NCBI RefSeq assembly: GCF_020923435.1
Contig: NZ_CP087263.1
Span: 2,809,970 to 2,873,969 of the forward strand
Source: Brevibacillus humidisoli
GTDB lineage: Bacteria > Bacillota > Bacilli > Brevibacillales > Brevibacillaceae
Direction of reading: 5' to 3'
DNA length: 64,000 bases
Below are positions 11,930 to 61,540 of the stretch, piece by piece (within the stretch, counting starts at the first letter, position 1; every line of letters starts with the position of its first letter). Made by a program: the position numbers and the translations under genes. The notes under the pieces are model-generated. The model was not told where the DNA came from. It saw nothing but the letters and a program-made list of their open reading frames with translations, and did not search any database.

Positions 11930-11960
11930 ATTTATAAAATAGTCTAACTATTTTATAAAT
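11930..11960. repeat. Perfect AT-rich palindrome next to foldback copy 1
   Basis: ATTTATAAAATAGT (11930-11943) and its exact complement (11947-11960) flank CTA. The right arm abuts the conserved flank of the foldback element. The other copy has a different perfect palindrome in the same place. Confidence 0.75.
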
Positions 11961-12190
11961 CTGTAGACAAATCCTCAGTACAGGCGGAGAGTAGCTCTTT
12001 TCCGGAAGGAGCAACTTTTGCCAACCAACCGAGCGGAACCGGTACGCAAGCGGCGGCTTTCGGGCGCAACCCTGAGATACCTCGTAGCGATGACCACTTT
12101 TGCGACCGCCCGCTTCGGACTGGCGCAGCGGACAGTCCCGCATCCTCGCAGGTTGGCAACGGCGCGACTGGAGGAAAAGAGCTACTCTCC
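11960..12190 (-). repeat. Foldback (MITE-like) element, copy 1
   Basis: The core 11986-12190 (205 bases) begins and ends with an exact 18-bp inverted repeat, GGAGAGTAGCTCTTTTCC and its complement (11986-12003, 12173-12190). On the minus strand it matches the core at 22688-22891 almost base for base; about the first 136 bases are identical and most differences lie in one ~22-base patch. A further 26 bases (11960-11985) are also shared. Internal arms such as GTTGCCAACC and GGTTGG extend the fold into a long imperfect hairpin. No open frame of recognisable kind. It is either a small non-autonomous mobile element or a dispersed structured RNA. Confidence 0.85.
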
Positions 12191-12267
12191 GTTGCACTGT
12201 GATTTACCAGTTCACGATGTCTCAGCCTGCCGCAAATCACGTGTAAAAAATGAGAGGGAGGTATCCC

Positions 12268-13059
12268 ATGAAACCCCAACAACTTGATGAATCGTTGATG
12301 AAACACATCCGGCCAGATATGTTCCCGGTAGGCATCAAAATCGTCAAGGAGAAAAGCGCTCTGCCGACAAAGGCGAAACGTCCAAAGCGCGACTTCGGTT
12401 ACGAGATCACGATCTGTCAGGCTGTGGGCTTTTCTCGCCGCTACGGATGGTCGATCGCGATGAACGGTGAAGATCTCTCCTGTCCGATCGCCCAAGTGGC
12501 CTTTGGCTACCAGCCTGCCCTCCCCTACTACAGCGAGGGGCATCTGGCCTGCGGCATGTACACGGAAACACTTGACGCTGCCAGACGGACAGAACAAGAT
12601 GTACCCAAGTTAGCTGCAGAAGATAGTGGATATTATGTCTCCTTTCCGCTCAATCGGGCACCATTTGAGCCAGACGTCGTCGTCATCTACGGCAACGCAG
12701 CACAGGTGATGCGGCTGGTAGCCGGTATGCTCTACAGGCGAGGCGGCTCTATTACGTCCAGCTTCTCCTCCCGCGCCGACTGCGCCGACATCGCGATTAA
12801 GACCCTGCAAACCGGAGAGCCACAAGTGATTCTCCCCTGCTATGGCGATCGCCTGTTTGCCCAGACGCAGGACACCGAGATGGCGTTTAGCTTCCGGTTT
12901 GCCGATGCGGAGGAGTTAATCGTTGGCCTGGAAGGCACTCACAAAGGGGGCATCCGCTATCCAATCCCCGCTTTTCTCCGTTATCAGGCAGAGTTTCCTG
13001 AGAGCTATCAACGCTTAAACCAACAGTTTGCTGAAAACATGCCGGCAGCAGACGAGTAA
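12268..13059 (+). CDS. DUF169 family protein
   Basis: 263 residues. Recognised by the family pattern PVGIKIV near the N-terminus, ITICQAVGFSRRYGW, a central CGMYT motif and the C-terminal YPIPAFLRYQAEFP. Members are soluble and often cysteine-containing; their function is not established. The ATG at 12268 is chosen because GGGAGG sits six bases upstream; an ATG six codons earlier lacks a site. It stands alone between foldback copy 1 and the CapA-like gene. Confidence 0.8.
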   Translation: MKPQQLDESLMKHIRPDMFPVGIKIVKEKSALPTKAKRPKRDFGYEITICQAVGFSRRYGWSIAMNGEDLSCPIAQVAFGYQPALPYYSEGHLACGMYTETLDAARRTEQDVPKLAAEDSGYYVSFPLNRAPFEPDVVVIYGNAAQVMRLVAGMLYRRGGSITSSFSSRADCADIAIKTLQTGEPQVILPCYGDRLFAQTQDTEMAFSFRFADAEELIVGLEGTHKGGIRYPIPAFLRYQAEFPESYQRLNQQFAENMPAADE

Positions 13060-22189: not shown

Positions 22190-22609
22190 GTGAATGGGAA
22201 CTGGCTCTGGTGGATCATTTTACTCTGCTGTTTTGGTGCGACAGCCGTATGCTACCTCTTCTTTTACCGGTATCGCCAATCTGTCGGGTTTCACGTTGCG
22301 ATGAACCTGGCGATGACATCAAGCACCCTGCTTGGCACGACCAGCGGCATTGTGATCGGCTATCAGTTTTCTGAGTCTTATGCCTTTGCAGCCATTGCCA
22401 CCACTTTCATCGCTGCAGCCGTTGGCGCCTTGTTCGGATCACTGGGTGACCAGCAAACCGTGCTGGCGGGGCTGTCAAGCGGCACCATGACCGGTATGAT
22501 GAGCCCGATGCTAGGAGCCCATGCCGGACAGCCGCTAGGATTACTGTTGTTTAGTACAGCCCTTTTGTTCATCTGTTTTGGTTTGTTTTGCTACTCCCAC
22601 AAGACGTGA
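22190..22609 (+). CDS. Hypothetical membrane protein with Gly-rich helices
   Basis: 139 residues, four hydrophobic helices with many small residues (TSSTLLGTTSGIVIG, AAVGALFGSLGD, SSGTMTGMMSPMLG). GTG start at 22190 with AGGTGG eight bases upstream. The glycine-zipper look suggests packed helices; no family recognised. It ends 28 bases before the outer arm of foldback copy 2. Confidence 0.65.
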   Translation: MNGNWLWWIILLCCFGATAVCYLFFYRYRQSVGFHVAMNLAMTSSTLLGTTSGIVIGYQFSESYAFAAIATTFIAAAVGALFGSLGDQQTVLAGLSSGTMTGMMSPMLGAHAGQPLGLLLFSTALLFICFGLFCYSHKT

Positions 22610-22637
22610 CCAATGGCGACAACCAACGAAGAAAAAG

Positions 22638-22941
22638 AGAGGCGCTCTGCCTCTCTTCAGATTGCAGACAAAGTGGAGCGGCGCGAGGGAGAGTAGCTCT
22701 TTTCCTCCAGTCGCGCCGTTGCCAACCTGCGAGGATGCGGGACTGTCCGCTGCGCCAGTCCGAAGCGGGCGGTCGCAAAAGTGGTCATCGCTACGAGGTA
22801 TCTCAGGGTTGCGCCCGAAAGCCCCCGCTTCGGACTGGCTCCGCTCGGTTGGTCGGCAAAAGTTGCTCCTTCCGGAAAAGAGCTACTCTCCGCCTGTACC
22901 GAGGCTTTGTCTACAGACTGAAGAGAGGCACTCTGCCTCTC
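22638..22941 (+). repeat. Foldback (MITE-like) element, copy 2, with outer inverted arms
   Basis: Core 22688-22891 with the same exact 18-bp terminal inverted repeats as copy 1 (22688-22705, 22874-22891), in the opposite orientation to copy 1. Here an internal 15-bp inverted pair (CCAGTCCGAAGCGGG and its complement) is intact, giving a longer foldback. Outside the core is a second inverted pair of 37 bases (22638-22674 and 22905-22941, about six mismatches), each arm containing a GAGAGGC...GCCTCTC palindrome. On the minus strand the left palindrome is followed by TTTTTCTTC and could terminate the glycosyltransferase transcript. Confidence 0.85.
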
Positions 22942-22998
22942 TTCTCTCTCTCCGAGCTAAACTCCCTCGCTAGCTGGGCACGAGAGTGTGTGGATGGT

Positions 22999-24477
22999 TC
23001 ATGAATCGAAGTGATTTGTCTCTGTGAGTACCTTGAGAAAGGACAAGTCCGGGATTGAGTAGTGTGCTGGGAGATTCCTTGACATGTCATCCCACTCCTT
23101 TTCGTGCAGTTGGCTTTGGACGCGAAAGATAAACATGCTTGCTGCCGAATCCCTTCGCAGCGACCTCTTTTTCGTGAAACCGTGTGGAATGCCAAGATGA
23201 GGCTGCTGAAGGGTGTTGGGGGCTGGAGATTGCAGCGCTTTCAGCACCTGATCGTACACATTGATCACGCGCTCACCCCAAACCTTTGAGGGCCACTGGT
23301 GAACTCCCCATTCCTTCGCGTTTCTCTCTAGGTGCTGCCGCAGATCAGAATCATTCATCACTTCCGACAGTCTCTCGGCCAACTGCTCGCTGTCACTGAC
23401 CGGAAAGAGCAAACCGGTATCCCCATGTTTGATCATCTCTGGTATTCCTCCGCTGTCAGAAGCGATGATAACTTTCCCGGCGATTTGTGCTTCCATGATA
23501 GCGGATGGCTGAAGATCTTCCAAAGAAGGCAAGACGATAACATCTGTCTTGTTGTACAAGGAAGGTACATCCGCCCGGTGCCCTAAAAAAACGACGCGGT
23601 CAGCAATCCCCTGTTTAGCACAATGCTCCTCAAGCTCATGCCTCATCTCGCCGTCGCCAATCAGCCAGCAGATGAAATCGTTCCGCTTTTGAGCGAGTAC
23701 ACATAATGCTTCGATCAGGATTTTATGTCCGTTCCGCGGCGCAAGTGACGCCGGACAAGAGATGACATATTGGTCAGGTTTCTTTTGCACAACAGGATAC
23801 GGCTCGTATTGCAGCCATTCGAGGAACTGGTCCAAGTCCAATCCATACGGGATGATCTTGCATTGTTCATTTGGGACCCCGTAATGGTGGTTTAATTGAT
23901 CCAGCAGCCATTTCGCAGGGACAAGCGTTTGATTGCATGAAATCGCACCGTAGTATTCTTCCGCTACAACGTATTTCCACTTCAAACTCTCTTTGTTCCC
24001 AATATGATCAGCGATGGTACGATCGTTGGCCAACAGACCATGATTTTGAAAGATCAGCGGAATGTGACGCGGCTTCACTCTCCATAAGGCTCTCGTCGAT
24101 ATGACATCATGGGTGTGAATCATGTCGTATCCGTCCAAATGGAACAAAGAAACGGCTAATTCAAAAGTGTAACGCTCAATCTCCCGCCAGCGAATCCATG
24201 GATGAACATGCGGTAAATATTTTTGATAGTACCGATACAGTTCGCTATAAATCACTTGCTTGATTTTTGCCTTGTCAACGGATTGACCGCTCATCACCTT
24301 CGTAAACGCGCCTTTTGGCTGGCGACTGACCAGATAGATCTGCTGCATATCCGGGTGGTGTGCCAAGAGATCGACCTGATGGCCGTGCCGCTCCAGTTCT
24401 TTTTTGAGCAAATGAATAGACGTATTCAACTTCCCCGCCTGGGGGATGCCCCAATAGGTGGAAAACAGAATTCTCAT
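22999..24477 (-). CDS. Glycosyltransferase, GT4 family
   Basis: 492 residues from the chosen ATG (24477; one seven codons earlier is possible). GT-B fold: N-terminal domain with YWGIPQAGKLN, and in the C-terminal domain the donor-binding region VVFLGHRADVPSLYNKTDV and the E-x7-E-like motif EDLQPSAIMEAQIAGKVIIA. It should transfer an activated sugar to a cell-surface acceptor. The last ~70 residues after the GT fold are polar and unusual, with no domain I recognise. Downstream of the GT61 gene with 47 bases between; together they look like a small surface-glycan unit beside foldback copy 2. Confidence 0.85.
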   Translation of the reverse strand: MRILFSTYWGIPQAGKLNTSIHLLKKELERHGHQVDLLAHHPDMQQIYLVSRQPKGAFTKVMSGQSVDKAKIKQVIYSELYRYYQKYLPHVHPWIRWREIERYTFELAVSLFHLDGYDMIHTHDVISTRALWRVKPRHIPLIFQNHGLLANDRTIADHIGNKESLKWKYVVAEEYYGAISCNQTLVPAKWLLDQLNHHYGVPNEQCKIIPYGLDLDQFLEWLQYEPYPVVQKKPDQYVISCPASLAPRNGHKILIEALCVLAQKRNDFICWLIGDGEMRHELEEHCAKQGIADRVVFLGHRADVPSLYNKTDVIVLPSLEDLQPSAIMEAQIAGKVIIASDSGGIPEMIKHGDTGLLFPVSDSEQLAERLSEVMNDSDLRQHLERNAKEWGVHQWPSKVWGERVINVYDQVLKALQSPAPNTLQQPHLGIPHGFTKKRSLRRDSAASMFIFRVQSQLHEKEWDDMSRNLPAHYSIPDLSFLKVLTETNHFDS

Positions 24478-24524
24478 CGTTCTCACCACTTTCTGCATAC
24501 GGCGTCCCTGTACATGATCCCCAC

Positions 24525-29891: not shown

Positions 29892-30170
29892 TGAAAATAA
29901 GAAAGACCCGTCCCCAAAGGGACGAGCCGTTTGCTCGCGGTACCACCCATCTTAGGCAGCCAGATACTGCCCCACTCTCGTCATCGATAACGGGATGATC
30001 CGGACGCCTCCTACTTAAACACGGAAAGTGGTTTCAGAGGGCAGCTCAGGAGGGAATTCCATAGATGTAGCACTGGAAATACTCTCAGTCTGCGGTATTT
30101 CCTCCCTGAAAGGCTACGATTCCATGTACTAGGCTCCTTCATCGCACTGTCACATGATGAAAACTGGTGT
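29892..30170 (-). ncRNA. T-box leader of pheST, Phe specifier
   Basis: Minus-strand leader with the T-box sequence GGGTGGTACCGCG (29948-29936), a competing terminator (GGCTCGTCCC / GGGACGGGTC, then TTTCTTATTTTC) and stem I elements including GATGAAGGAG and AGTA. The specifier is read as TTC at 30056-30054, from its position in ATTCCCTCCTGAGC, which lines up with the equivalent segment of the ilv T-box here. Uncharged tRNA-Phe should stabilise the antiterminator and raise pheST expression. Confidence 0.93.
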
Positions 30171-61359: not shown

Positions 61360-61540
61360 AACAAAAGAAAAAGCCTACTTCTGAGCGAAGAAGGCTTTTC
61401 ATACGTATGTACGTAAGCATTCCTTCTCATCTCTCAGAGAAAATCTCTGCAGGAATTAGCACCGTATTCTCCCAATCGAATGGGAGTCGGTTGCCGGGCG
61501 TCATAGGGCCAGTCCCTCAGCCGCTCTTGATAAGAAGATC
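61360..61540 (-). ncRNA. SAM-I riboswitch (S-box) upstream of metIC
   Basis: Minus strand: CTTATCAAGAGCGGCTGAGG, GACTGGCCCTATGACGCCCG, GGCAACC, and the downstream GGTGCTAATTCC helix make the aptamer (about 61535-61418). A terminator AAAAGCCTTCTTC / GAAGTAGGCTTTTTC with T-rich tail follows (61399-61362). SAM binding should cause termination. Confidence 0.96.

Follow-up and report, generated by a model that had tools for sequence, protein, structure and literature searches.

Foldback repeats of Brevibacillus humidisoli lie between duplicated terminator hairpins and are very probably miniature elements of the IS1182 type

Transposases of the IS1182 family are known to aim at hairpins, and the members characterized so far destroy their targets. 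IS1272 replaces the stem-loop, according to its authors (PMC5678879), and TnSha1 deletes the target hairpin and leaves no duplication (PMC4923244). Duplication of the whole hairpin has been drawn as a hypothetical route (pathway b in Fig. 13 of the IS1272 paper, PMC5678879), and we found no report of it for an IS1182 element in the open-access papers searched. Here we describe a dispersed foldback repeat from a 64,000-nucleotide stretch of the Brevibacillus humidisoli chromosome (contig NZ_CP087263.1, positions 2,809,970 to 2,873,969 of the forward strand; referred to below as the window), most complete copies of which stand between two copies of the same hairpin. We consider it highly probable that the repeat is a miniature inverted-repeat transposable element (MITE) that is moved in trans by an IS1182-family transposase, duplicates its hairpin target, and carries a structured core as cargo.

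The unit measures 263 bp in the complete window copy (copy 2), has 16-bp terminal inverted repeats (CAGtcTGTAGACAAAG), and contains no recognized gene. Complete copies extend from 5' CAG..TGTAGACAAAG on the left to CTTTGTCT.CA..CTG 3' on the right. Across the whole genome (4.9 Mb, one contig), 35 BLAST matches resolve into 29 distinct sites, of which 13 hold a nearly full-length copy. The repeat is thus neither confined to the window nor the product of a single local duplication, since its sites are spread round the chromosome, and it is far beyond chance. Two genomes of the same genus (G001 and G002) contain relatives, with over 40 BLAST matches apiece, and no match was found among the plasmids or phages searched. 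Copies in G001 (e.g., L122, L124, and L132) share a longer left extension of about 100 nt and often have a terminator hairpin flush with the right end.

Outside both ends of most complete copies lies the same hairpin, which differs from site to site, for example AACCGCAGGAACGATTCCTGCGGTT at L092, AGCCGGAGCACTCGCTCCGGCT at L100, and AAGAGAGGC..GCCTCTCTT at copy 2 in the window. Among 38 copies with both ends located, drawn from the B. humidisoli genome and G002, the two flanks shared 11 bp or more of exact direct repeat in 26. When the left flank of one copy was paired with the right flank of another, the longest repeat was 10 bp, and 0 of 1,406 such pairings reached 11. The copies therefore have the flanking target site duplications by which MITEs are recognized. 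In 25 of 27 duplications, MITE and insertion sequence (IS) copies combined, the duplicated segment was a hairpin from end to end, compared with 5.8% of shuffles; the lengths were 19 to 31 bp, with a mean of 24. DDE transposases normally produce a short duplication of near-fixed length; at the MITE and IS sites the length is not fixed and tracks the hairpin. The foot of the right-flank hairpin was 0 to 2 nt from the element end in 36 of 39 copies, and a terminator-like T run after the right hairpin or A run before the left one was present in 22 of 39. Only 4 of 38 copies were inside a called open reading frame (ORF), and after insertion a terminator seems to stand at either side of the element.

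The same ends are found on autonomous elements in this genome. A search with the 16-bp end returned 29 exact sites, and 67 sites with no more than one mismatch compared with 9 for the backwards control. Pairs of ends about 1,545 bp apart delimit an IS with eight near-identical copies (six identical, two one base longer) in eight different contexts. Its transposase belongs to the IS1182 family (NF033551, E value of 2.5e-147, 491.7 bits against a cut-off of 270) and contains Pfam DUF772 and DDE domains; no solved homologue was found by sequence. Ends of the same kind bound a second IS of 1,537 bp, of which there are five copies, and its protein is visibly similar, the NF033551 profile having been run on the 1,545-bp IS alone. 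Both show the palindromic targets typical of the IS1182 family, with hairpin duplications at six of eight copies of the 1,545-bp IS (20 to 31 bp) and at two of five copies of the 1,537-bp IS, including a 25-bp one at L277. Two adjacent copies of the 1,537-bp IS (L279 and L280; G000:C1:3274021-3278456) have the hairpin AGAGGCCTGAWTCAGGCCTCT in common on their outer sides, the pattern expected had both travelled together as a composite. Given two autonomous ISs with shared ends, the repeat is very probably a MITE of the IS1182 type. Despite many MITE matches in both, G002 has a transposase relative only in broken form, and no match was found in G001. As a possible source of the copies in two other Brevibacillaceae genomes, 1.9-kb IS1182-like elements found there were rejected, having different ends and no hairpin duplication.

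These results bear out the original prediction, made from the window alone, that the repeat is a non-autonomous mobile element: it has terminal repeats and target duplications, occupies many unlinked sites, and has autonomous partners. The exact 18-bp inverted repeat bounding 11986-12190, which starts with GGAGAGTAGCTCTTTTCC and ends with its reverse complement GGAAAAGAGCTACTCTCC, was as described, as was the inverted second copy at 22688-22891 (97% identity across 231 bp). The predicted foldback is strong, with folding energy z scores relative to dinucleotide shuffles of -4.9 (copy 1) and -8.1 (copy 2, complete). However, when all copies were printed with their flanks, the 18-bp repeats taken for termini proved to be an internal stem. 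The 26 extra conserved bases on one side, read as a sign of an asymmetric unit, are the left terminal segment; complete copies have a matching right terminal repeat about 30 bp further out, and only one side seemed extended because copy 1 lacks its right end. The features of the two window copies are as follows.

11931 to 11959, no strand: AT-rich palindrome with a 12-bp stem, TTTATAAAATAG tctaa CTATTTTATAAA, flush with the left end of copy 1 (read from the sequence)
11960 to 12190, plus strand: copy 1 of the element, right-truncated, with the right terminal repeat and right target copy gone (by comparison with complete copies)
11986 to 12003, plus strand: left arm of the 18-bp internal rod stem of copy 1, previously taken for a terminal repeat
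12004 to 12172, plus strand: structured core of copy 1 (covariance model R1, E value of 6e-23; G000:C1:2821973-2822141)
12173 to 12190, plus strand: right arm of the 18-bp internal rod stem of copy 1
22635 to 22657, no strand: 23-bp terminator hairpin AAGAGAGGCGCTCTGCCTCTCTT, target duplication copy at copy 2
22658 to 22920, minus strand: copy 2 of the element, complete, 263 bp
22658 to 22673, minus strand: right terminal inverted repeat of copy 2; the plus strand reads CAGATTGCAGACAAAG
22688 to 22705, minus strand: arm of the internal 18-bp rod stem of copy 2
22706 to 22873, minus strand: structured core of copy 2 (covariance model R1, E value of 1.1e-27; G000:C1:2832675-2832842)
22874 to 22891, minus strand: other arm of the internal 18-bp rod stem of copy 2
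22905 to 22920, minus strand: left terminal inverted repeat of copy 2; the minus strand reads CAGTCTGTAGACAAAG
22921 to 22943, no strand: second target duplication copy at copy 2, AAGAGAGGCACTCTGCCTCTCTT, with one mismatch to the first

The palindrome at 11931-11959 is probably the left target duplication of copy 1, of which no right counterpart remains. Compared with copy 2, one stem of the copy 1 core is partly broken. At copy 2, a scan found a terminator-like site at 22634-22658, and the neighbors are a 139-aa ORF (22190-22609, plus strand) and a convergent glycosyltransferase gene (22999-24498, minus strand). Copy 1 adjoins a gene for a DUF169 (COG2043) protein (12250-13059, plus strand) for which no relative was found in the two genomes of the same genus. 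Elsewhere in the window, a T-box leader (29915-30151, minus strand) and a SAM riboswitch (61424-61536, minus strand) both scored above the Rfam gathering score.

Inside the element is a core of about 165 nt that is conserved within the genus and beyond. A covariance model built from 32 copies matched 47 of 300 Bacilli genomes, representing 22 of the 118 genera sampled, and hit one genome 109 times. Two-sided changes were seen in 19 of 23 core pairs. Covariation was 0.44 compared with 0.145 for shuffles in the original MAFFT alignment, and 0.58 compared with 0.16 for shuffled and at most 0.10 for slid controls in a broader model-fitted alignment that, unlike the original one, leans toward the model by construction. 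The core thus has the conserved structure and compensatory changes expected of a functional structured RNA, and the structured RNA family that the original prediction offered as an alternative survives as this inner part. With stems defined strand-symmetrically, G-U exceeded A-C at helix positions (75 versus 41 column types, counted over related copies), which favors RNA over a constraint at the DNA level. The likeliest nature of the core in our model is that of a structured RNA, read from the plus orientation; the data fit a functional RNA fold and a selfish passenger alike. Neither the element nor its relatives matched Rfam at gathering scores, group I and II introns included, and a relaxed search gave sub-threshold hits only.

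The core is not confined to IS1182-type ends. In a genome of another family (G232), it lies within a 260-bp MITE with the ends CAGGGCTGTTGATTA and a 9-bp duplication (a mean of 6.9 of 9 positions matching, null 2.6), and therefore no fewer than two kinds of ends have carried the same module. The CAGGGCTGTTGATTA end occurs 80 times in that genome, compared with 0 in the control, and is paired at the MITE spacing; a search for an autonomous partner of these MITEs found none. Shorter G232 elements of about 165 to 200 bp with the same CAGGNNTGTTGATTA ends (e.g., C1:730832-731034, 3122904-3123068, and 3225163-3225326) are possibly core-deleted forms. Core copies are also numerous in two related genomes, mostly as divergent pairs (15 of 15 neighbor pairs in G030 and 16 of 18 in G025). 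These pairs are 40 to 600 bp apart, often with AT-rich spacers (e.g., L212 and L215 to L224), and an alternating core array occupies G025:C1:1016000-1020000.

In the mechanism that we propose, the IS1182-family DDE transposase would recognize the 16-bp ends (CAGnnTGnAGACAAAG) and move the MITE in trans, choosing as its target a palindromic hairpin, usually an intrinsic terminator. The target would be extruded as a cruciform or recognized as a palindrome, and the element ends would be joined to the two outer (5') feet of the hairpin, one per strand. Gap repair would then copy the whole hairpin, leaving the element between two intact hairpins. Both of these may still terminate transcription, and insertion would be nearly neutral for the neighboring genes. 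A reading in which the flanking hairpins are instead preexisting tandem terminators, or travelled with the element, could draw on the few copies that have a different hairpin on each side (L010 and L018) and on the unlinked copies L017 and L018, whose left hairpins have an identical 9-bp left stem (ACACCTTCC/GGAAGGTGT) and different loops. We regard it as extremely unlikely, as the hairpin differs at nearly every site and matches within a copy but never between copies, and as six of the eight contexts in which near-identical IS copies sit have a duplicated hairpin of their own.

The role of the core allows more than one explanation. It looks like cargo that is not needed for transposition: L018 and L020 have the same internally deleted, core-less 136-bp form (96.6% identity) at two unrelated terminators, and the core is therefore unnecessary for movement. 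Its presence in most copies and the maintenance of its structure across very different element ends would fit a requirement in transposition, such as a folded single-strand substrate, but the core-deleted form and the fully read 1,545-bp IS, which is explained by a transposase gene and ends alone, make such a requirement very unlikely. A somewhat better case exists for a structured RNA, regulatory or catalytic, that was selected for a host function and became mobile secondarily, in view of its deep structural conservation in 22 of the 118 sampled genera, its covariation, the G-U excess on one strand, and the many copies in G001, where no transposase relative was found. We nevertheless find this doubtful, given that amplification is species-specific and no gene neighborhood is fixed, that the copies have terminal repeats and target duplications, that core-deleted forms are mobile, that the element lies between terminators, and that no promoter was found near copy 2. 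Somewhat less doubtful, though still unlikely, is a wider possibility, that the core is an undescribed RNA class, widespread in Bacilli, that acts as RNA and has been joined to several unrelated transposon ends, in the manner of an IStron without the intron. The ends in question are the IS1182 type with hairpin duplication, CAGGGCTGTTGATTA with a 9-bp duplication, and the divergent pairs and arrays of other Brevibacillaceae.

Several observations weigh against the account of a trans-mobilized, hairpin-duplicating MITE with an RNA core. The 11-bp shared repeat was missing in 12 of 38 copies, probably due to age, end loss, or recombination, and one copy of the 1,545-bp IS has an 8-bp non-hairpin duplication and another has none. 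Exact element boundaries are uncertain by 1 to 3 bases. No transposition event was observed. No empty site was found in two sister species (one genome each), where the orthologous neighborhoods tested were not syntenic; both have relatives of the glycosyltransferase next to copy 2, in a different neighborhood. As to the RNA, the G-U excess was weak in the three g1 species (51 versus 33), and strand-biased mutation could underlie it. A scan around copy 2 revealed no sigma-70-type promoter, and transcription entering from outside should be curtailed by the hairpins on either side.

Dozens of natural insertions with the hairpin duplicated, in B. humidisoli and a sister genome, provide natural evidence for terminator-sparing jumping, until now only a proposal. 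They make the foot-of-hairpin model directly testable and suggest a possible route by which an element may enter terminators without damaging them. The covarying folded module, which has no Rfam entry, is found across many Bacilli at up to about 100 copies in a genome; a noticeable share of the intergenic DNA of Bacilli may therefore be unannotated structured sequence.

Among known systems, we rejected class C group II introns, whose insertion sites lie after terminators: there was no Rfam match, and target duplications are present, which introns are not known to make. Like IStrons, in which a group I intron is fused to different IS families (PMC4227781), the core is a structured RNA-like module associated with more than one transposition system; unlike them, it has no Rfam group I intron match, is much smaller, and lacks a protein gene. 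Bcr1 and other stem-loop repeat families are also folded intergenic repeats of Bacilli, and Bcr1 is of similar length (147 to 167 bp; PMC2267715). With bacterial MITEs in general, such as RUP, BOX, Bcr1, and ERIC, the element shares its short, non-coding, foldback form, many intergenic copies, terminal repeats, and IS-shared ends (PMC10969869 and PMC3733652). It differs from them in its hairpin-sized target duplications and in a core conserved across Bacilli families inside differing transposon ends. A close likeness is to IS1272 and TnSha1 of staphylococci (PMC5678879 and PMC4923244), which are also IS1182 family members with 16-bp ends and whose targets are likewise hairpins of any sequence, often terminators, chosen by structure. 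In contrast to these elements, which remove the hairpin without duplication, the Brevibacillus MITE and ISs duplicate it whole, and a hairpin stands on both sides of the insertion.
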